29,173 nt of DNA from a virus, in the IMG/VR virus record IMGVR_UViG_3300017917_003343, positions 1 through 29,173 of that record. One strand, written 5' to 3'. Within the stretch, counting starts at the first letter, position 1, and the number at the start of each line of letters is the position of its first letter. Positions 990-26,102 of the stretch are shown piece by piece. The position numbers and the translations under genes are program-made. Below the pieces are notes generated by a model. The model made no database searches and was not told the DNA's origin. It saw only the letters and a list, made by a program, of their open reading frames with translations.

Positions 990-1235
990 ATGGCAAAGCT
1001 GATTAACATTTCTGTTGGCGAGTTTAAAACTCGCTTTTCTTGCACAACTTTACAGATTGTGCGTAATCCAAACACCGGTAAACTCTTTGTTTCCACTGAT
1101 AACGGTAAGAATTTCCGCTGTCAGCAGAACATAGACCTTACAAAGGTGCTCACTTTTCTTAAAGAAGATGAAGCTTCGGAGAACGATTGGTGCTTGGCTA
1201 ATGGTTCAGGTGATAATATCGTGGGTACTTTATAG
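990..1235 (+). CDS. Small hypothetical protein
   Basis: An 81-residue, soluble-looking protein (MAKLINISVGEFKTRF...), first rightward gene after the divergent region. It has no motif I recognise. The codon choice includes CGC, CGT and ACC, richer than the A/T-biased neighbours and like the presumed highly expressed genes at 3129 and 20852. It is probably an abundant early protein. Confidence 0.65.
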   Translation: MAKLINISVGEFKTRFSCTTLQIVRNPNTGKLFVSTDNGKNFRCQQNIDLTKVLTFLKEDEASENDWCLANGSGDNIVGTL

Positions 1236-1458
1236 TACTCACGGTATTTCTATCTATAGTGTAAACACAATAGTGTAAACATTGTAGCTTAACTATTGAT
1301 AGTCAAGCAGTTAGATGGGTTCTTATAACCCTACCCACAATTTTACAAAATTAACGCTGTAAAAATCTTAGTCCTTAATTGGTCTAAAATTCTATAGCCA
1401 AAACTCTGATGTGTTCCTTTGGACAGAGTATAAATAAATCCATAAATACAAGGAGTGC
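1236..1458 (+). other. Intergenic stretch with small hairpins and a short direct repeat
   Basis: No gene is visible. TAGTGTAAACA is repeated at 1257-1267 and 1271-1281. Small stems include GGGT/ACCC around TCTTATA (1317-1331) and CTCTG/CAGAG near 1405-1427. It could be a leader or processed RNA. Confidence 0.4.
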
Positions 1459-1719
1459 ATGGTAGCTCAAACTCAAAATTTATTTAAAATGACACTTCAA
1501 GACTTTAACAAATTAACAGGTCCAGAAAGACTGAACATGATGAATAATCATTTTTCTGAATGGATAATTCCTTATGATTCAAGGCAAGATAATTTTGATG
1601 CCAATGTACAAAGATGGCAAGAAATATATGGTTTTGAATTACCACACACAGATAAAGTTATTTATAATGACTTTATGCGTAAAAAAGCTGGTAAACTTTG
1701 GAATTATACTGGAGATTAA
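1459..1719 (+). CDS. Hypothetical protein, 86 aa
   Basis: A soluble protein beginning MVAQTQNLFKMTLQDFNKLTG. An unusually good Shine-Dalgarno, AAGGAG at 1450-1455, lies four bases before the ATG; most genes here have none. It is aromatic and acidic in the second half, with no known family. A strong terminator follows directly, so this gene ends a transcription unit. Confidence 0.7.
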   Translation: MVAQTQNLFKMTLQDFNKLTGPERLNMMNNHFSEWIIPYDSRQDNFDANVQRWQEIYGFELPHTDKVIYNDFMRKKAGKLWNYTGD

Positions 1720-1724
1720 ATGTT

Positions 1725-1768
1725 TTGAGTTCACCTGAGATAACATCAAAGGTGAACTCAATCTTTTT
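1725..1768 (+). terminator. Intrinsic terminator
   Basis: TTGAGTTCACCT (1725-1736) and AGGTGAACTCAA (1750-1761) form a perfect 12-bp stem with a 13-base loop, followed by TCTTTTTC. It lies six bases after the stop of the preceding gene. Confidence 0.85.
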
Positions 1769-2158
1769 CTCTTTGCACAACTCACATGGTAACTTTTTGT
1801 CGTTGCTCTGCTTGATGAGTCAAGATGTGAAACCACCTGATTAATACTCAAGGCTATTAAAATTGTTTAGCGATTACTGTTAGGTAAGGTTCCATTCCTT
1901 ACTGGTATGTTAAGAGAGTTAAATTAGTCAGCTTCCAAGGGTGAGCAGTTGTAATACAGTAATATCACAGCATAACTACAAGAATGGACAGTGACTTTAG
2001 TCAACCAGTCATCTTGTAGCTCTATTAGTCTGGCTTAACAGCGTGGTATTACAACTGAGTGCAGAGGAATTCATAGGACTTTATCTGTTGGACTTCATAC
2101 AACAGAGGCTTTTTGGTGAGGCTTAAACCATTTATTTTGTAACTAATTAACACACAAT
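1769..2158 (+). ncRNA. Structured intergenic region; candidate noncoding RNA
   Basis: There is no gene in this 390-base stretch, but it has several good helices in order. GTAAGG/CCTTAC (1884-1889 with 1897-1902) is a hairpin. CAGTTGTAATAC (1946-1957) pairs with GTATTACAACTG (2046-2057) over 12 perfect pairs. This encloses CTACAAGA (1976-1983) with TCTTGTAG (2012-2019), itself extended by short stems to a TTTA loop. TCTGTTG (2084-2090) with CAACAGA (2100-2106) is followed by GGCTTTTTGG, possibly terminating. The nested helices suggest a folded RNA. No known riboswitch or RNA family is recognised. Confidence 0.5.
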
Positions 2159-2341
2159 ATGTACTCTTTAATTTTTCTATTAACAACATTGATAAGCCTT
2201 ATTTTAATAGTGCTTAATCAGGACAGTCATTCAATTATTTCAGTAACATGTCTCGCAATTCTGATAATATCAGCTATTATTGTAGCCACATTATTAGATA
2301 AAGTAGATCAAAAATTAAATGCAAAGCAAAACCAAAAATAG
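2159..2341 (+). CDS. Small two-helix membrane protein
   Basis: Sixty residues: an N-terminal hydrophobic helix (about 3-20), a short loop QDSHS, a second hydrophobic helix (about 26-46), and a charged Lys/Gln tail. It is predicted to sit in the inner membrane as a hairpin. It overlaps the next gene by 23 bases. A holin-like or spanin-like role is imaginable but not supported by position. Confidence 0.55.
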   Translation: MYSLIFLLTTLISLILIVLNQDSHSIISVTCLAILIISAIIVATLLDKVDQKLNAKQNQK

Positions 2342-2534
2342 TGGAATTGTTGAGGGATTCAGCAAACCACGCAGACAAAGAATTACAAGAACTGTAATTC
2401 ACTGGGTAAACGTAAAACATTTACCCAAAACTCCAAGACAATGTATTGATGCTAAAATTAAGCAACTTTACAAAGAATTGGAGATGGATTCTAATCAAAT
2501 TTTAACACACAAACTAAAATTATGCAAAAACTGA
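2319..2534 (+). CDS. Hypothetical basic protein, 71 aa
   Basis: A small basic protein (MQSKTKNSGIVEGFSKPRRQ...), rich in Arg and Lys and with a predicted C-terminal helix. It overlaps its neighbours on both sides (23 and 13 bases), as expected for translational coupling. It could bind nucleic acid, on charge alone. Confidence 0.5.
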   Translation: MQSKTKNSGIVEGFSKPRRQRITRTVIHWVNVKHLPKTPRQCIDAKIKQLYKELEMDSNQILTHKLKLCKN

Positions 2535-3128: not shown

Positions 3129-3668
3129 ATGAAAACTACATTTGGAAAACTTACAGTTGATTCAGTATCAGAAAATACTTACAAAAAAGGTATTTTTCAA
3201 GCACAAATCCGTCAGGTTGTTACTACAGAATATCCTTCTATGAGGGTAGGTAACAGTTCATCTGATTTGTTGTTCAGTGAATCATCTTTCAACATTCCTG
3301 CAGGTCAATCTTACAACTCTACACGGGTTACCTGGATTCCTGTTCCTGCAGGCACTACTGCTGCACAGGTTGCTGAACGTCTGGCTGCTGTTCCTGATGC
3401 ACGTATTTACCGTGTTATCAGCAACAATGTAAATGATGTACTTACCAGTGAGCAACATCAGGCTATTTCTGCAGGTCTGCGTACATTGGAATCTTTTAAA
3501 GATTCTCTGTTAGTACGTGATTCTGAAGGGAATGCAGTTGTTCCTGCACAGTATCGTCAAAACTTCTTCTCTGCAACAGGCAAAGAAGATGTTGATATGC
3601 GCACAGCTAAAACTGCAAATGTTCCTGCAGCTGCTGCTCCTGTATTTGCAGGTGCAACTATTGAATAG
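3129..3668 (+). CDS. Abundant early phage protein of unknown function, 179 aa
   Basis: A soluble protein starting MKTTFGKLTVDSVSENTYKK and ending in an Ala/Pro-rich flexible tail (AKTANVPAAAAPVFAGATIE). Codons are distinctive: CGT for Arg and CTG for Leu appear often, unlike the AGA/TTA bias around it. This is the same shift as in the SSB-like and ubiquitin-like genes and suggests strong translation. It is a single-gene unit with long flanking leaders and hairpins. No family is recognised; a DNA-binding or virion-internal role is possible. Confidence 0.7.
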   Translation: MKTTFGKLTVDSVSENTYKKGIFQAQIRQVVTTEYPSMRVGNSSSDLLFSESSFNIPAGQSYNSTRVTWIPVPAGTTAAQVAERLAAVPDARIYRVISNNVNDVLTSEQHQAISAGLRTLESFKDSLLVRDSEGNAVVPAQYRQNFFSATGKEDVDMRTAKTANVPAAAAPVFAGATIE

Positions 3669-10919: not shown

Positions 10920-11175
10920 AGCTTCTTATCTAACTTATATAGACAGGCTTAGTCTTAAAAATGCAAAAGGCAAAAAACATATAGAGATACTTAAGGTCAG
11001 AGATTTAATTATATACATTCTTATGGAGGAATATCCTCATGTAGTGATTAAAGAATGGAAGAAAGAATTTCCTTCAGTTCTTGATATGTCTAATGCTGAA
11101 ATAAGAAAGAAAGTACACAGAAGAATGAATGGCAATAATGATTACATTGACTTATATTTAAAACTAAAAGGATGA
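10900..11175 (+). CDS. Hypothetical protein next to the polymerase, 91 aa
   Basis: Start at ATG 10900 (MEKLLNKASYLTYIDRLSLK). It is basic and helical, and its stop overlaps the polymerase ATG by 4 bases. The position suggests a replication accessory role, but no motif supports one. Confidence 0.55.
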   Translation: MEKLLNKASYLTYIDRLSLKNAKGKKHIEILKVRDLIIYILMEEYPHVVIKEWKKEFPSVLDMSNAEIRKKVHRRMNGNNDYIDLYLKLKG

Positions 11176-13190
11176 TTTATTTTATCAGTAATCAGACTTC
11201 CATAGAAGAATCTGATTATTACCAAAGGGCAACTATTGATGAATTTTTTGAGTGGCTTAGTAAACAGACAGAAGTTCAGATAGATACAGAGACAACGGGA
11301 TTTGATGCATATACACATAACATTATTTGTGCTCAGTTTGGTAATTATGATGTTCAATGGGTGATTACTGAAGATATAATATTTTCTGAAAGTTCTAAAG
11401 CAAGGCTTAAACCTATATTAGAATCTAAAGATATATTATGTATTCTGCAAAATGCCCTGTTTGACTTAAGATTTTTTTATGTACAGAAGATATATCCAAG
11501 AAGAATATATGATACATTTCTTGCAGAAATATGTATAAACCTGGGTTATGATCCAGGGACATATAGAAAAGGGTTAAAAGCTCTTGCAGAAAAGTATCTT
11601 GGAGTATATCTGAATAAGGACATCAGAGGTCAGATACATTATAAGGGATTATCAACTGATGTTATTGTATATGCAGCCAATGATGTAAAGTATTTACAGG
11701 CTATCAAGCATGAGCAGGAAAAGATTATTGCAGAGAAAGAATTACAAACTGTAGTAGAACTTGAGAATTCTTTTGTAAGAGTACTTACTTATCTTACTTT
11801 ATCAGGTATTCATCTTGATGTAAACAAGTGGACTGAGAAGTGTAAGAAAGATAAAGAGATACTTGCAGAGCTTGAGAAAAAGCTGCATGATTGTATATTA
11901 GAAGACCCAAAAAGATTTAATAAGTACATAAACAATCAGCTTGATTTATTCTCAGATGAGATAACTACAAATATTAACTTCTCTTCCCCTGCACAAGTAG
12001 TAAAACTGTTTAAAGAACTTGGACTTAATCTTGAGACTAAGGATAAAAAGACAGGTAAACTAAAGGATTCTGTTGAGGCTAATATACTGATACCTCAAAA
12101 AGACAAACATCCTATTATATCTGTATATCTTGATTTTAAGTCTCAAGAAAAGATTGTATCTACTTATGGTGAAAACTGGCTTAAGCATATAAATCCTGTC
12201 TCAGGCAGAATACATACTCAATATACTCAAATGCTTGATACAGGCAGGATGAGTTCAGGAGGTAAAGATAAATACAACAAAGTTGAATATCTTAACTTTC
12301 TAAATATACCACAGGATAATGAAATCAGAAACTGTATAATTCCTAAAGAAGGATACAGTTTTGTAGATTGTGATTTTACAGGTCAGGAAACTATGATATT
12401 TGCAGAGTTTTCTCAGGAGCCTGCTATGGTAGAATTTCTTAATTCAGATGGTTCTGACATGCATTCATTTGTTTGTTCAAAAATATATTCTGAACTTTCT
12501 AATGTACCTTTACATGAAATTAAAACCAAGTATAAAAAAGAGAGAAATTCTGCCAAGGCGGCGGGATTTGCCATACAATATGGCGGTGTGGGAGCTACAA
12601 TAGCTAAGAATTTATCTATATCTACTGAAGAAGGTGAGTTTGTATATAACTCTTACATGAAAGCATTTCCTAAGATTTCAGAGTATTTTAAAAAATGTAA
12701 GGCACAGGTTCTTTCTAAGGGTTATATTGTAACTAATCAATTGACCAAAAGAAGAATTCACTTTACAGATTTTGAAAAATATAAAGAATTATCTAAAGAA
12801 ATAACAGGAGAGTTTTGGGAAGAATACAGAGAGCAGAAAAAATTAAATTCTCTTAAATTCTCTTTAATGAAAGAAACTATAAGAGAGTATTTCTTAATTA
12901 AAGGTAAACTTGAAAGAGCTTCTCTCAATTATCCTATCCAAAGTACAGGTGCAGACATGACTAAACTTGCAGCTATGTATCTGTTTAATCATATTATTGA
13001 AACAGATAATATGTTTAGAGTATTTATTCCTCTTGTAGTCCATGACCAAATTGTTGTTGAGTGCCCTGATTCTGAAACAGAGTATTGGGCTAAAATAACT
13101 TCTGATTGTATGGTCAAAGCAGGAGATTTATTTTGTAAATCAGTTAAAATTAAAGCAGAACCAGAAATACTTAAAAAATGGAAAAAATAA
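11172..13190 (+). CDS. polA: Family A DNA polymerase with 3'-5' exonuclease
   Basis: This 672-residue enzyme copies the phage genome. The exonuclease domain has Exo I (D38-T-E40), Exo II (NALFD) and Exo III (YAANDVKYL). In the polymerase domain, motif A is VDCDFTGQETMIFAEFS with D399 or D401 as metal ligand, motif B is R458-xxx-K462-xxx-F466-xxx-YG, and motif C is VHDQ at 623-626. Motif C has Gln where most family A enzymes have Glu (HDE). A Phe at the O-helix site favours deoxynucleotides. There is no 5'-3' nuclease domain, as usual in phage polymerases. The next gene overlaps it by 13 bases. Confidence 0.95.
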   Translation: MIYFISNQTSIEESDYYQRATIDEFFEWLSKQTEVQIDTETTGFDAYTHNIICAQFGNYDVQWVITEDIIFSESSKARLKPILESKDILCILQNALFDLRFFYVQKIYPRRIYDTFLAEICINLGYDPGTYRKGLKALAEKYLGVYLNKDIRGQIHYKGLSTDVIVYAANDVKYLQAIKHEQEKIIAEKELQTVVELENSFVRVLTYLTLSGIHLDVNKWTEKCKKDKEILAELEKKLHDCILEDPKRFNKYINNQLDLFSDEITTNINFSSPAQVVKLFKELGLNLETKDKKTGKLKDSVEANILIPQKDKHPIISVYLDFKSQEKIVSTYGENWLKHINPVSGRIHTQYTQMLDTGRMSSGGKDKYNKVEYLNFLNIPQDNEIRNCIIPKEGYSFVDCDFTGQETMIFAEFSQEPAMVEFLNSDGSDMHSFVCSKIYSELSNVPLHEIKTKYKKERNSAKAAGFAIQYGGVGATIAKNLSISTEEGEFVYNSYMKAFPKISEYFKKCKAQVLSKGYIVTNQLTKRRIHFTDFEKYKELSKEITGEFWEEYREQKKLNSLKFSLMKETIREYFLIKGKLERASLNYPIQSTGADMTKLAAMYLFNHIIETDNMFRVFIPLVVHDQIVVECPDSETEYWAKITSDCMVKAGDLFCKSVKIKAEPEILKKWKK

Positions 13191-16182: not shown

Positions 16183-16687
16183 AACAGACAGTCTTCCTGA
16201 AGATTTAAGTCCTGTAGAATATGTAATCTTGTATTGTATTCACTTTAAAATTCCTGCAGAATATATGCCTCAGGAATTATATAGATTACAAGACAAGAAA
16301 TATTTGAAACTGACTGACACTGTAGAATTAAGAGATAAAGCCATACAGCTTTTGACTCCTTCTCATGATGCAGCTTTTCAGAAGTTTCTTGAAGTATTTG
16401 GTACATATCCTATCAAGACTTATTCAGGCAGGAGATTAAGACCTGTTAAATTAGATGCCAAAGAGACCTTGGATTTATTTCAAAAATATAAAAAGAGAGT
16501 ATTGGAAAAAGGGAAACACTCCTATGTGAAAGCTTGTTTGGATGCAGAACTCAAGCAAAGAAAAATGGCTAATACTCTTGAATATATGCATGAGATGATT
16601 ACATGGGTCAACGGTGAAAAGTGGGATAGATTTGCTCCTGAGGATAATCAAGTTCCTGAAATAACAGAAAGGGTAGATAGTATATGA
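16166..16687 (+). CDS. Probable helicase loader / replisome organiser
   Basis: Start at ATG 16166 (MTITIETDSLPEDLSPVEYV), 173 residues. The second half has 'FGTYPIKTYSGRRLRPVKLD', then a helix KYKKRVLEKGKHSYVKACLD, and ends with LEYMHEMITWVNGEKWDRF. A 'TWxN...W' C-terminal block is typical of phage proteins placed just upstream of DnaB-type helicases, thought to load them. The 4-base ATGA overlap with the helicase gene supports that pairing. The family link is my recollection; function is inferred. Confidence 0.6.
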   Translation: MTITIETDSLPEDLSPVEYVILYCIHFKIPAEYMPQELYRLQDKKYLKLTDTVELRDKAIQLLTPSHDAAFQKFLEVFGTYPIKTYSGRRLRPVKLDAKETLDLFQKYKKRVLEKGKHSYVKACLDAELKQRKMANTLEYMHEMITWVNGEKWDRFAPEDNQVPEITERVDSI

Positions 16688-18719
16688 GTTTAGAGAAAAG
16701 AATCCAAGATGGCTTAGAAGGTAAGTATAAAGGCCTTGCAAACGGTTTTTCTGATATTAACAAGTACATATTTGGAGTACAGAGAAAATGTTATACTTTG
16801 GTAGGCGGTGCATCAGGCAGTTATAAGACAACCATATTGGATTTTATTATTCTAAATGCTCTTATAGATGCCGAGAAGCAAGGAATACCTATAGACATAT
16901 TTTATTATTCTTTTGAGATTGACGAGGTTACCAAGAAATGTAATTGGACATCCCAATTGGTTTATATGACTTATGGTACAGTCATTCCTCCTGAGAAAAT
17001 AAAAGGTCTTGGTGATAACAGGTTATCTGCTGAAGAACTTGCTTTAGTCAAAACTGTGATACCTGAAGTAGAGAAATTATTTGCAAAAATTAAATTTACA
17101 TTTGAGCCCACTAATCCTACAGGTATTTACAATGAGCTGTTCAGGCATTGTAAAACTACGGGAGAATTGATTTATGAGGATTATATTGATGAGCATGGAA
17201 AGGCAGGTAAAAGGATAAATGGGTTTAAATCAAATGATGACAGATACATATTGGTAGCTATTGACCATTTGTATTTATGCAAGAAAGAAAGAAATTTTTC
17301 TACTAAGGAAAACATGGACAAGATGAGTGAGTATCTTGTTTTACTCAGGAATATATTTGGCATATCTCCTTTTGTATTGCAGCAGTTTAATCAAGGGTTA
17401 ACACAAAAATTAATGAAAATTTTGTATATTTGCATTATGAATGCAAGTGTATATATAATAAAAAATTTAGTAAACAAAAAAGTTTATATAGGAAGCAGTG
17501 TAAAAGTGAAAAGAAGATTTTATGAGCATACAAGAAAATTAGATAAAAATATTCATATAAATCTTCATCTGCAAGCTGCTTGGAATAAATATGGTAAAAA
17601 TAATTTTGAATTTAAAGTTATTTACACTATAAAAAAAGAATTAATAAGAAAAACAGAACAATTTTTTATAAATAAATACCAAAGTTTAAATCCAAAATAT
17701 GGATATAACAAAACAGTTGTTATCAGTAATTGTTGGGATGATTTAAACATAAACAAAACACAAGAAAATAAATTTTACTTTGTGTGTTATGATAAAAATG
17801 GAATTATAAAAAAAGTGTTTAAAACTATACAAGATGTTTATGATTTTTTAGGAGGTAGATATACCAGAATTTATGATGCCTGCAATAGTAATTTTTCAAA
17901 AACTTGTAAAAATTATTATTGGAGTAAAATAAATGTGACAAAAGATAAAATACCTTCTAAAATAATTCCTAAAGAAAGAAAAGGTAGACACAAACAATTG
18001 TATCAGTATGATTTAAACATGAATTTTATCAAAAATTGGTCTTGTGCTGCAGAAGCAGCGAGAGTTTTAAAATTAAGTTCTTTTAATATTACCAGATGTT
18101 TACGAAAAAATAATAAGTATAAAAATTTTTATTGGTTTTATAGCCCAGTTGTATAGTAATATACAATTAAAAATATGGGAAGAATTGCTGGAAACCCTAA
18201 GTCTGAAAAGATATGGAAATCAGCAGCCGAGCTACTAACCATTTAGTAGAAGGTTCAGAGACTACTGGAGAGAAAATGGGTTCTCTTAATAACCAGATGT
18301 AGCATCCCACTACCTAAAATCAGGTAGAAGATATAGTCCGAGCTTATAGGAAACTATAAGAAGTGAAAAAGAAAGATTTTCACGATAACAAAACTGTAAG
18401 TGCAGTAGACAGACAAAAGTTTAAAGGTGTGGATTTATCTCCTCAACAGACAGACTTTAAAGATACTACAAACCCATATCAGGATGCAGATGTAGTAATA
18501 GGTCTTATGAATGCCTATAAAATGGGGCTTGACAGTTCTTTGGGGTATAGACTGGACATATTTAAAGACAGATTTCTTATGTATAAGATAATCAAAAACA
18601 GACTATCCAGAGATAATATTGCCAAAGGTCTTATAGCTTACCCTCAATCAGGCAGGTTTATGGAGCTTCCTAAAGCAGAAGAATTTAATATGAATCCAAA
18701 ACTTTATACAGAATATTAA
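16684..18719 (+). CDS. dnaB: DnaB-type replicative helicase, split by a group I intron
   Basis: Exon 1 is 16684-17398 and exon 2 is 18397-18719; joining them gives 345 residues in one frame. This RecA-fold hexameric helicase unwinds DNA at the fork. Walker A is GASGSYKTT (42-50, Lys48), with Tyr in place of a Gly. A Glu at 78 (SFEID) and Walker B AIDHLYL (Asp194) follow. The QQFNQGL motif at 233-239 is the sensor region and is exactly where the intron sits, splitting codon 239 after its first base. The spliced junction QQFNQGL/SAVDRQKFKG and then DFKDTTNPYQDADVV reads as a continuous conserved block. Unspliced, translation runs from exon 1 into the endonuclease and ends at 18156, losing the C-terminal motifs. 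Confidence 0.92.
17425..17432 (+). promoter_or_regulatory. TATATTTG box before the intron endonuclease
   Basis: TATATTTG, then CATT, then ATG at 17437. This matches TAnnTTTG and the same 'box + 4 bases + ATG' layout as the RepL-like gene. It could let the endonuclease be transcribed independently of dnaB. Confidence 0.45.
17437..18156 (+). CDS. GIY-YIG homing endonuclease (intron-encoded)
   Basis: From ATG 17437 (MNASVYIIKNLVNKKVYIGS), 239 residues. The GIY-YIG signature is VYII and VYIGS, with Arg-rich KVKRRFYEHT next, LQAAWNKYGKNNFEF, and Glu in RKTEQFFINKY as the expected metal-binding residue. The C-terminal half carries two intron-nuclease helix-turn-helix repeats of NUMOD type (around 125-160 and 180-230; LYQYDLNMNFIKNWSCAAEA). 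It cuts intronless alleles so the intron spreads by repair. It is in frame with exon 1, so it may also be made as a fusion; ATG 17413 is another start. Codons are more A/T-rich than the host gene. Confidence 0.9.
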   Translation: MNASVYIIKNLVNKKVYIGSSVKVKRRFYEHTRKLDKNIHINLHLQAAWNKYGKNNFEFKVIYTIKKELIRKTEQFFINKYQSLNPKYGYNKTVVISNCWDDLNINKTQENKFYFVCYDKNGIIKKVFKTIQDVYDFLGGRYTRIYDACNSNFSKTCKNYYWSKINVTKDKIPSKIIPKERKGRHKQLYQYDLNMNFIKNWSCAAEAARVLKLSSFNITRCLRKNNKYKNFYWFYSPVV

Positions 18720-24111: not shown

Positions 24112-26102
24112 ATTCCCTTCCAGTTTTGTAATGGAAGCAGTTGATGTATTTTTGGTAGCTAAAGGTTCTGCTGCAGAAGTAGGATATAAAGTTACCGCAG
24201 ATTTAATGGGAGATTTGGATGAAGCAGGACTATTGGAAGAAGGTGTGTACAGAGGTCTTATACATTTGTGAAAGAGTGTCATTAATCAGTAATGGTTAAA
24301 AGTAAACAGGATGAATTGCTGGAACGGGTACAGAAAGCCTCAATCAGCAGCCAAGCTATAAGTACACTTATAGAAGGTTCAACGACTACCTGAGCAGTAT
24401 AGTCTGCTTAATAACAGGAAGTAGCTATTAGTAGTGTAATAGTGAAAAAGCGTCCTGCCCCTAACATTATATTAGGGTGAAGATATAGTCTGGTCTTGTA
24501 TAATTTTCTGAAAAGAAGTATGGTTAATTCTACTTTGAATTTTATCATATTTTCTTTTTAAATAAAAGTTTAAATGATTATAACAATTTAAAAATTGAAC
24601 AATTTGTTCTTTTTTACACAAGCTTAATATATAAGTTTTATTAAAAACTAAATTTTTTTGAATATTAAGATGATTTAAAATTCCAGTAAGAAGTTCTTTT
24701 GTGCCTCTTATTGAAATTTGAATACTATAAGATGGATAATATTTATTATTTGTTTTTTTTATTTTGCCTTTTGGTAATAAAACACTTCCATCTCCATCAA
24801 AATATCCAATAATAAATGAATTTCTAAACTCATAAGGAATGTTTTTTATAATATTTCCAATTGTCAAAGATTTACGATTAAAAATTCCTAAATTATTCAA
24901 ATCTTGAATTAATTTAGGGTTTGATAAAGTAAATCTTATATGGGAAGTCATTTCATCAGAGCCCTTATATAAAGGACGAATAATATTAATAAGAGGTTTT
25001 TTACATCCTATTTCTCTTTTAAGAGTATCTAATATTTCTTTGTCTTTTTTATGAATAGTAATTGTTAAAGTATTTTTTACAATTCCTCCATCTGCTGCAA
25101 TAAATCCTAAAAAATAAGCTTTTAAAGAAGTGTCTATATTTTGAAAATATCTTACATTTCCTTGGTCAGGCCTAAATTTATATCCTAACTTATTACACAT
25201 TTGTTGGGTTGAACAATAGACTAAATTAAGCAAATTAGATATTTCATTAGGTGTTTTACCTTCTTCTAAAAAAGATAAAATTTCTTTTTTAAAATTAGAA
25301 GGAACATTTTTGTTTTTCATTGTAGATATTACTTATAATCATTATAACGATAAAATAAAATACAAGTTACATTACGTCGCATCATAATATGGCTACCAAC
25401 TTTTCAGGCACAGACTATGAGCAACTGAAACTTGCCTGTCAGAGTAATCCATATTATCTCTCAGTAGTAGTAAACAATGTACTTGACTTTACTGCTAAAG
25501 TTGCTATTGAATCTAAAGAAGTGTTAAATGGCTACAGCTATTTTAAGACACCTAATAACAAAGAAGTAAAGACTCCCAAGACATATACTAAAACAACATT
25601 TGAAGTAATTGAGGTAGGTGTAGAATGTCAATGGCCTGATTATATGCTGACAGTAGATGAGCAGATTAACAATATTCAAAAGTATTCTCCTGCTCCTACT
25701 TATGCAAATGGTTATTCATGGAATTCTCCTGCTTATAATGCATATTCTCATAACCAACAGTACAAGAATAACTATCAAAAAAGAGATGCTTGGGAATTGC
25801 CTTTACAATATTATGATGCTCCAAAAACAACTCCTGCTTCTAAGCCTGCAGTCCCTGTAGTAGAAGAAGAAGATGAGTATGAATTGTATGCACAGCACAT
25901 TGAGACAATTGTAGAAGTTCTTAAAACTGAAAAACTTGATTACAAAAAGTTTGCAGATACTTTATTGTCTACTTGTGATGAAGCAGGAATTCCTTATCAG
26001 TTTTTATGGGAATATCTTTTGACTGAAACTGTAATCAGTGAAGAGTATGATAATAAAGTGGTAGAATATTTAGAACCTATTATATACAAAGAAGTAAAAT
26101 GA
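24005..26102 (+). CDS. JAB/MPN (JAMM) isopeptidase, split by a group I intron
   Basis: Exon 1 is 24005-24265 and exon 2 is 25377-26102; joined they encode 328 residues. JAMM metalloproteases cut ubiquitin-like proteins at isopeptide or C-terminal bonds. The spliced motif is complete: E24 (IEWMGVFAY), then GLIH/SHHNMATNFSGTD giving H87-x-H89-x7-S97-x2-D100. The intron lies exactly between the H87 and S88 codons. Unspliced, translation of exon 1 stops at 24271, two codons later (Leu-stop), and an ATG at 25389 gives a C-terminal part lacking H87, H89 and E24. Residues 101-328 are a variable region with an acidic stretch (VVEEEDEYELYAQHIE). It overlaps the E1-like gene by 4 bases (ATGA). Confidence 0.93.
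24266..25376 (+). mobile_element. Group I intron in the JAMM gene
   Basis: The 1111-base element starts after a U (24265) and ends in G (25376). The core, near its 5' end, matches the dnaB intron: GAATTGCTGG (24313-24322), AATCAGCAGCCAAGCT (24342-24357), AGAAGGTTCAACGACTA (24372-24388) and GAAGATATAGTC (24479-24490). A CATTA/TAATG hairpin lies near 24280-24294, and GTGT at 24276-24279 can pair with exon ACAU using U-G at the splice site. Splicing restores the JAMM motif. The nuclease gene sits after the core, antisense. Confidence 0.9.
24472..25320 (-). CDS. LAGLIDADG homing endonuclease, antisense within the intron
   Basis: A 282-residue protein on the strand opposite to the host gene. Two LAGLIDADG helices, AYFLGFIAADGGI and SFIIGYFDGDGSV, each end in a metal-binding Asp, as in single-chain enzymes. 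An N-terminal helix-turn-helix (FKKEILSFLEEGKTPNEISN) adds DNA contact. It would cut an intronless JAMM gene. Its last codons and stop (24472-24474) overlap the conserved GAAGATATAGTC of the intron core, so the reverse complement of that catalytic segment codes for protein. Its promoter should be in 25321-25376 on the minus strand; no good TAnnTTTG box is seen. Confidence 0.92.
   Translation of the reverse strand: MKNKNVPSNFKKEILSFLEEGKTPNEISNLLNLVYCSTQQMCNKLGYKFRPDQGNVRYFQNIDTSLKAYFLGFIAADGGIVKNTLTITIHKKDKEILDTLKREIGCKKPLINIIRPLYKGSDEMTSHIRFTLSNPKLIQDLNNLGIFNRKSLTIGNIIKNIPYEFRNSFIIGYFDGDGSVLLPKGKIKKTNNKYYPSYSIQISIRGTKELLTGILNHLNIQKNLVFNKTYILSLCKKEQIVQFLNCYNHLNFYLKRKYDKIQSRINHTSFQKIIQDQTISSP

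Follow-up and report, generated by a model that had tools for sequence, protein, structure and literature searches.

The window analyzed here comprises an entire virus record (29,173 bases) and carries a replication module consisting of a DNA polymerase A gene (11172-13190), a helicase and a primase. Among the matches listed, the polymerase resembles that of a Leptolyngbya phage (43%) and those of crAss-like phages (34-39%). The region of interest is flanked by genes for two proteins (990-1235 and 3129-3668) whose named-phage relatives were found only in 29 Flavobacterium phage records. A search with the 3129 protein alone yielded no relatives; an alignment including the Fpv1 protein as query retrieved 38 loci. 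Elsewhere in the window, a group I intron (24256-24510, plus strand, 74.9 bits) overlaps with its 3' end an endonuclease gene on the minus strand (24472-25320; phrog_4645, weak HNH match), and the C-terminal half of a 490-aa protein (16684-18156) matches homing-endonuclease PHROGs, one of them named GIY-YIG.

Between 1719 and 2159 the plus strand has no ORF of at least 60 aa. The preliminary description called this stretch gene-free, which is true of the plus strand; the minus strand contains one ORF (1639-1851, 70 aa, TTG start) that overlaps gene 1459-1719 as well as the 5' portion of the element described below. The terminator said to precede the stretch is present as a terminator-like hairpin followed by Ts (Table 1). 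A perfect 12-bp closing stem and an extended hairpin within it, proposed as parts of a candidate noncoding RNA, were both recovered, the stem as inverted repeat I9, and both fold more stably than shuffled sequence. The hairpin 1976-2019 has an energy of -13.7 kcal/mol (z -2.58, none of 200 shuffles as good), the stem with its contents (1946-2057) one of -30.7 (z -2.92, one of 200 shuffles as good). The statement that there is more structure than chance offers applies to these two and not to the entire interval 1852-2158 as first drawn, which folded no better than chance on the plus strand (z -0.55, 26 of 100 shuffles) or on the minus strand (z -1.77, 7 of 100 shuffles). Its boundaries also had to be moved: the true unit begins about 85 nt further upstream, and the part at 1767-1851, with the outer stem, the upstream strand of P4 and the upstream side of an extra domain, falls outside the interval. 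Stem and hairpin are one arm, P5, of a larger RNA at 1767-2070. For 1764-2076 the energy is -81.0 (z -1.92, 5 of 100 shuffles), and the minimum-energy fold itself shows the outer stem, P4 and P5 that were deduced from homologues. What most clearly sets the element apart from chance is its conservation and covariation among relatives rather than its folding energy.

Table 1. Features of the element in the window, and hatchet ribozymes in records with copies
Feature	Position	Strand	Basis or remark
Terminator-like hairpin with T-run	1725-1761	+	Inverted repeat I4: 17-nt arms, 88% complementary, 3-nt loop; 3' of gene 1459-1719
Whole twister-like element, long-loop class, 'zipped' L1	1767-2070	+	Model R1, descriptor search, minimum-energy fold
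CUU replacing the conserved UAA (twister L1 5' strand; cleavage step elsewhere)	1771-1773	+	Descriptor rows
P2 5' strand UGCAC, partner 2059-2063	1774-1778	+	Descriptor search, fold; P2 covaries in homologues
P4 5' strand CUCAC, partner 1941-1945 GUGAG	1781-1785	+	P4 two-sided changes in 5/5 pairs
P4 loop, 155 nt, holding the extra domain	1786-1940	+	Comparison with other long-loop copies
CUGAUUAAU pairing with AUUAGUCAG (1923-1931), inside the extra domain	1837-1845	+	Fold; same pairing readable in other long-loop copies
Hairpin GUAAGG-UUCCAUU-CCUUAC	1884-1902	+	Same module inside P5 of L090
T1 pseudoknot 5' strand UCC, can pair with GGA 2066-2068	1934-1936	+	Compensatory to CCC:GGG of most copies
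P4 3' strand GUGAG	1941-1945	+	Descriptor search, fold
P5: stem 1946-1957/2046-2057 and variable insert including hairpin 1976-2019	1946-2057	+	Arms conserved in homologues
P2 3' strand GUGCA	2059-2063	+	Descriptor search, fold
Tail GAGGA, twister L1 3' strand; can pair partly with 1770-1773	2064-2068	+	GAGGG in 125/133 rows
Hatchet ribozyme over Rfam threshold	L081 3088-3239	-
Hatchet ribozyme over Rfam threshold	G002/G007 30306-30438	+

Recurrence and genomic setting of the element

When 46 loci of related phages were searched with a nucleotide profile, a single match emerged, L014 6501-6638. It lies roughly 1.4 kb upstream of the local 3129 homologue; both arms and their outer flanks are conserved in it and the middle is not. 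A gapped pattern of the two outer flanks occurred in 90 stretches of viral contigs; among 94 pattern instances, not deduplicated, 82 had at least seven complementary bases directly inside the flanks and 12 had fewer. The 3' flank alone yielded at least 120 matches. In a prokaryote collection with one genome per species it occurred once, in an 8.2-kb Neisseriaceae MAG contig (L139 6108-6126) that we suppose to be phage DNA; this copy is a complete long-loop one with UAA. Altogether 156 distinct rows, a few of them false, were collected from IMG/VR phage loci up to L231; such counts refer to distinct sequences, not independent events, many loci being fragments and some near-identical. Records often contain several copies, three of them within 604 bases in G011.

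A covariance model, R1, was built from a 40-sequence alignment (A3) that left out the window and L014. In 525,739 bases, comprising the window and 39 loci, it found L014 with an E-value of 3.5e-25 and the window (1877-2076) with 42.8 bits and an E-value of 9.1e-9, followed by L020 at 5.6. The window copy accordingly belongs to the family by a model from which it was absent. In 30 of the 38 loci of 3129 relatives, together with others, L014 was the sole match besides the window. The 3' half and P5 of the window copy are placed rightly by R1, but the 5' half is misplaced; its actual position, 100 nt further upstream, was located by descriptor search and minimum-energy folding. Matches with an E-value of at most 0.01 were obtained in 32 of 35 virus records, most of them picked for holding the pattern, and none in Fpv1 (W01) and two relatives, L018 and L029; weak matches on the opposite strand are echoes of the P5 inverted repeat. 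A closing stem in Fpv1 that by eye resembles that of the window (L004, ~7500-7350, minus strand) is not a member according to R1.

Window 1200-2400 had no nucleotide match among named phages, and the 5' frame of L094 had three weak, unrelated ones. On the window, Rfam reported, at gathering score and relaxed E-values, the group I intron and chance snoRNA-type matches only. A literature search, with subscription papers and preprints mostly outside its reach, returned no description of the element. In these searches of the window and of copies elsewhere, the element is a recurrent phage RNA family absent from Rfam 15. The earlier view that it matches no known RNA class holds for Rfam 15; in its layout it follows the type-P1 twister ribozyme, with modifications.

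The polymerase and structural genes of the loci suggest kinship with crAss-like, Flavobacterium-type and cyanophage-like phages. The closest matches of PolA of L099 are Leptolyngbya phage Lbo-JY46 and crAss-like phages, a structural protein of L178 is 62% like that of cyanophage S-RIM50, and the L117 polymerase and L195 ATPase have only distant named relatives. As a phage marker, phrog_2, which we take to be the large terminase, gave weak matches in 5 of 28 records. The next ORF (at least 70 aa, within 600 nt) is on the same strand in 87 rows and on the opposite strand in eight; 19 rows have no ORF within 600 nt and four lie inside an ORF. Of the 87 same-strand rows, counted without merging those of one contig, 26 lie 28-60 nt before the ATG. 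The window's own next ORF begins 91 nt past the tail, outside this cluster.

Known ribozymes occur beside the copies. In 5 of the 35 records a twister (below gathering score) or hatchet match is located no more than 1 kb from a copy; in the matched records the nearest copy is 0-1.0 kb away, and 14 control genomes had no such match. The twister matches, in three records, score 36.9-49.4 bits, all below the gathering score of 67.2: that of G008 (48.5 bits; UUAAUGCA...UGCAGAUGG, UUGUUAAUGCA...UGCAGAUGGACAA) precedes a copy by 105 nt, that of G010 (49.4 bits) adjoins a copy and that of G015 (36.9 bits) is ~0.4 kb away. Hatchet exceeds its threshold in three records (G002, G007 and G010, the first two apparently near-identical), ~0.96 kb from copies. 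Enrichment of self-cleaving ribozymes near other self-cleaving ribozymes and Mu-like phage genes is described in the available text of PMC10085705.

Two further observations concern the same loci. A tmRNA is often situated upstream of the 3129-3668 homologue (L004 6382-6796 and L005 5806-6220, both on the minus strand, L017, L018, L024, L028, L040 and others), with a tag mostly ending in ..AVAA or similar; it was reported by ARAGORN in 11 of 37 loci, and by Rfam in 5 of 11 loci and in Fpv1 and FPSV-S29, whose listed features have none there. A second recurrent frame, ACTCTCATCCAATTGCAGG and GCAACCTTGTGAGAGT separated by a variable 60-120 nt, was found in nine places, in L011 (two copies, more by eye), L119, L155, L163, L178, L205, L213 and L219; several of these loci also hold the twister-like element. 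This frame is possibly another unnamed RNA family.

Architecture, covariation and copy classes

Descriptor searches for a P2 of 5 bp, a P4 of 5 bp and a P5 of at least 8 bp kept 133 rows, a few of them false (among these L016, L190 and a second window row, the last of which was dropped for the ORF and T1 counts). The short-loop consensus reads P1-UAA-UGCAC-CAUAA-CUCAC-UUCCCAAGG-GUGAG-CAGUUGUAAU-insert-AUUACAACUG-A-GUGCA-GAGGG-P1'. The frame thus consists of P1, an internal loop UAA/GAGGG, P2, P4 capped by UUCCCAAGG, and P5, whose arms CAGUUGUAAU/AUUACAACUG are conserved in homologues and whose variable insert comprises ~50-160 nt. The P4 loop is short in 99 rows and long in 34. TAA precedes P2 in 111 rows, CAA in six and AAA in one (xAA in 118 of 133), CTT in five, the window among them, and other triplets in ten. 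The tail is GAGGG in 125 rows, a number inflated because the scan patterns demanded part of it (GAGTGCAGAG, then GAGGG); UAA and UUCCC were in neither pattern.

Since the selection of rows demanded P2, P4 and P5, only two-sided changes carry weight in these helices. In alignment A3 such changes affect all five pairs of P4, with up to four pair types, three of five pairs of P2 and all eight pairs of P1, which pairs in 53% of the cells. When the partner was slid by 1-3 columns, pairing fell from 87% to 30-48%. P1 pairing was not used in picking copies. In 116 deduplicated copies P1 has 2.57 contiguous pairs, compared with 1.41 +- 0.10 in 2000 shuffles (maximum 1.81), and the excess is seen only in register with UAA and GAGGG: within 7 nt there are 3.28 Watson-Crick pairs in register, 3.09 and 2.74 when both flanks are moved by one and two, and 2.0-2.3 otherwise. 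A pseudoknot, T1, between the P4 loop and the tail can form all three pairs in 123 of the 129 rows that have the loop frame, among 132 examined. The pairing is CCC with GGG in 119 rows and compensatory in others, CAC:GTG in L138 and L204, which have the same unusual P2, and TCC:GGA in L082 and the window. Six rows (L016, L101 twice, L103, L127 and L190) cannot form the full set of three; L101, L103 and L127 break T1 only in part, and L016 and L190 are probably not members. Shuffles gave a mean of 115.5 and a maximum of 120, and none of 5000 reached 123; these shuffles, like those for P1, take no account of relatedness. Six members folded alone had z-scores of -2.06 to -4.19, and their minimum-energy folds contained P2, P4 and P5 in five cases and P1 in four; for L138, P5 alone of the model appeared. 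Covariation in homologues had been named as one of the checks: P1, P2, P4 and the loop-tail pseudoknot covary, and with the recovery of the window by a model built without it the proposal of a structured noncoding RNA is supported.

By a loose test (AA before a P2 partner, then a P4 partner), 128 of the 156 distinct rows class as UAA-type. Eleven are 'zipped', the tail being paired with the L1 5' strand, and two of these (L053, L210) look false; in the remaining 17, some of them not members, the 5' half was not found. The zipped copies L120, L148, L103 and that of the window read ..CUU-UGCA..

Long-loop copies have in common GUGGAUAUAAAGACUUCUUA...UAAGAUGUGAAACCACCUGAUUA...UAAUCAGCUCCCAAGG. 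A CCCAAGGGTGAG-like sequence then follows in 25 of the 28 places with both domain halves, and the other three (L125, L160, L189) nonetheless start with the 5' half of the frame. Among 24 copies selected on their first eight letters, each of the next ten positions holds one letter in 19-24 copies. From its sequence the domain appears to be a conserved internal loop, as in aptamers or tertiary contacts. In the window the 3' half of the P4 loop, AAGAUGUGAAACCACCUGAUUAAU, is conserved and the 5' half has diverged from GUGGAUAUAAAGACUUCUUA. The window hairpin GGUAAGGUUCCAUUCCUUACUGG occurs in its P4 domain and also inside P5 of L090, which indicates that modules move between positions. A T-arm-like hairpin, AUGGGUUCAAUUCCCAU, is located inside the extra domain of a long-loop copy in L081 (1862-1846, minus strand), and the tmRNA model gave short matches to the T-arm only in G012, G029 and G031. 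The conserved internal loop GUGGAUAUAAAGACUUCUUA/UAAGAUGUGAAACCAC has the 5' strand of P4 on one side and, within L4, the T1 strand on the other. It is conceivable, if unlikely, that the long-loop copies (34 of 133 rows, a few false, the window included) are allosteric self-cleaving ribozymes in which this loop is a ligand-binding aptamer that gates T1, and through it the active site, and lets the phage sense the state of the infected cell; zipped copies such as that of the window would then be cleavage-free descendants retained as sensors or scaffolds.

Interpretation and rival explanations

In the reading that we prefer, with a probability of roughly 0.6, window 1767-2070 belongs to a recurrent phage RNA family that follows the type-P1 twister plan; most copies would cleave and the window copy would fold without cutting. 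The plan comprises P1, the loop UAA/GAGGG, P2, P4 with UUCCCAAGG, and T1 as CCC:GGG, the long P5 and its free insert replacing an open L2 and T2. Most copies retain the putative catalytic pair, the A after U and the first G of GAGGG, and they probably cut their own transcript at U^AA. As copies lie on the strand of the genes, often shortly before a start codon, a cut would leave the mRNA downstream starting at a defined position, beneath a stable fold. By analogy, copies with UAA would trim phage polycistrons, the folded ribozyme staying behind as a 5' leader. In the window UAA has become CUU, which can pair with the tail, and the catalytic A is gone; this copy is therefore predicted not to cleave. 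Its fold would be kept, with T1 possible via UCC:GGA, and it may function as an RNA spacer or a protected leader between the terminator on its 5' side and the small genes that start at 2159.

The most serious alternative, possible in our judgment but doubtful, holds that all copies are a non-catalytic structural RNA, such as a protected 5' leader, an exonuclease block or a protein-binding scaffold, whose likeness to twister is convergent or ancestral. The conservation of UAA and of the first tail G, which are in no Watson-Crick helix, the start of P1 exactly beside UAA and the tail, and the twister and hatchet matches in the same islands argue against it. It would accommodate the position of 26 of the 87 same-strand rows 28-60 nt before an ATG, the conserved folded frame with a free insert, the persistence of zipped copies that lack UAA, and the failure of the Rfam twister models to match copies. 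This last point, the lack of T2 and of the L2 UAAA, and P5 inserts of a length (~50-160 nt) atypical of small ribozymes speak against the twister-plan reading.

A mobile DNA element of the MITE/REPIN type, in which an inverted-repeat frame ferries variable inserts between islands, is quite improbable. It would explain the extended inverted repeat CAGTTGTAATA/TATTACAACTG, the sharing of one insert by L137 and L084 despite their different 5' flanks, the L090 insert in the P4 domain of the window, and the several copies per record, but it is weakened by the strand bias of 87 to 8 relative to downstream ORFs and by compensatory changes in P4, P1 and the pseudoknot that are sensible only in RNA. 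Descent from a tmRNA, which fills the corresponding gene-free stretch in relatives with a 3129-type gene, is suggested by the place of tmRNA in Fpv1 and others, where it precedes the 3129 homologue, and by T-loop-like hairpins in some copies. It is highly improbable: neither tag frame nor acceptor stem is seen, the frame differs, Rfam and ARAGORN found no tmRNA in the window, the L014 record has no tmRNA match either, and the family model refutes it as well. Chance hairpins in A/T-rich intergenic DNA, with which the z of -0.55 for the interval as first drawn would agree, are refuted by covarying homologues and hardly merit belief.

If copies with UAA do cleave, as the twister-plan reading holds, they form a recurrent twister variant without T2 that is missed by the current Rfam twister model, and the active site UAA/GAGGG with T1 can rest on another scaffold. 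Natural derivatives that are apparently cleavage-dead, such as that of the window, would separate folding from catalysis. Twister, hatchet and the twister-like family share the gene-free islands of these phages, joined in some records by tmRNA, which makes the question why phages collect small ribozymes testable.

Comparison with known ribozymes

The consensus of twister type P1 in Rfam (RF03160; gathering score 67.2) reads ccuuUAAcgCcGCC...GcCGGUCCCAAGCCCGggUAAAgGcgGAGGGaagg, with UAA unpaired, P2, then unpaired GAGGG and P1; UAAcgC, UCCCAAG and GAGGG are located at the corresponding places of the element. P1, P2 and P4 are essential in twister and P0, P3 and P5 optional; L4 pairs with L1 in T1 and with L2 in T2, and an A and a G act at the active site, where the pairs A7/G45 and A6/G48 are named (PMC5408937). 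The element has the order P1-L1-P2-P4, an L1 of UAA opposite GAGGG, and in the P4 loop UUCCCAAGG, which stands in the same order relative to UAA, P2', GAGGG and P1' as the UCCCAAG of twister L4. Which letters of GAGGG the pairs A7/G45 and A6/G48 denote in the O. sativa sequence is presumed here. T1 has its counterpart in the pairing of loop CCC with tail GGG, the conserved A of L1 and the invariant G are present in the family, and both RNAs occur in phage intergenic regions near other ribozymes.

The element differs from twister in lacking T2 (GCC:GGU) and the L2 sequence UAAA: the linker between P2 and P4, mostly CAUU, CACAA or CAUAA, contains no GCC and L4 no partner for it, a single C-G contact being possible. 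P5 is present in all rows studied, as the selection required, with 50-160 nt between its arms, and P3 is missing. P4 covaries freely, unlike that of twister, and in long-loop copies L4 holds an additional domain. In the window copy the twister UAA is absent, and with it the A at the cleavage step of L1; CUU at this place can pair with GAG. The Rfam twister models gave no match on L175 or two L081 copies at an E-value of at most 10, nor on copies in six loci at 0.5. RF03160 at 0.01 matched no copy of the element in the 35 records, only the three separate twisters. Since Rfam does not call the element a twister, the copies falling short of the gathering threshold, it is not filed as a member; from its layout, we say that it would work like one. 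According to the available text of PMC10085705, further twister permutations were sought by its authors without success.

Hatchet (RF02678) has in common with the element the gene-free islands of G002, G007 and G010 and a GUGCAGA string near the 3' end; its stems and core differ, so that the fold is not the same, and it is cleaved at a different site. Hammerheads of phages and prophages (HHphage, haloviruses HF1 and HF2) are likewise situated shortly upstream of the start codons of early genes and, like the element, form tandem copies flanking genes (PMC3088659); their catalytic core is unrelated to it. Twister-sister is, as the element is, vaguely similar to twister in sequence and secondary structure, but it cuts the opposite strand and, in the available text of PMC5408937, is without evidence of a pseudoknot, whereas the element has T1.
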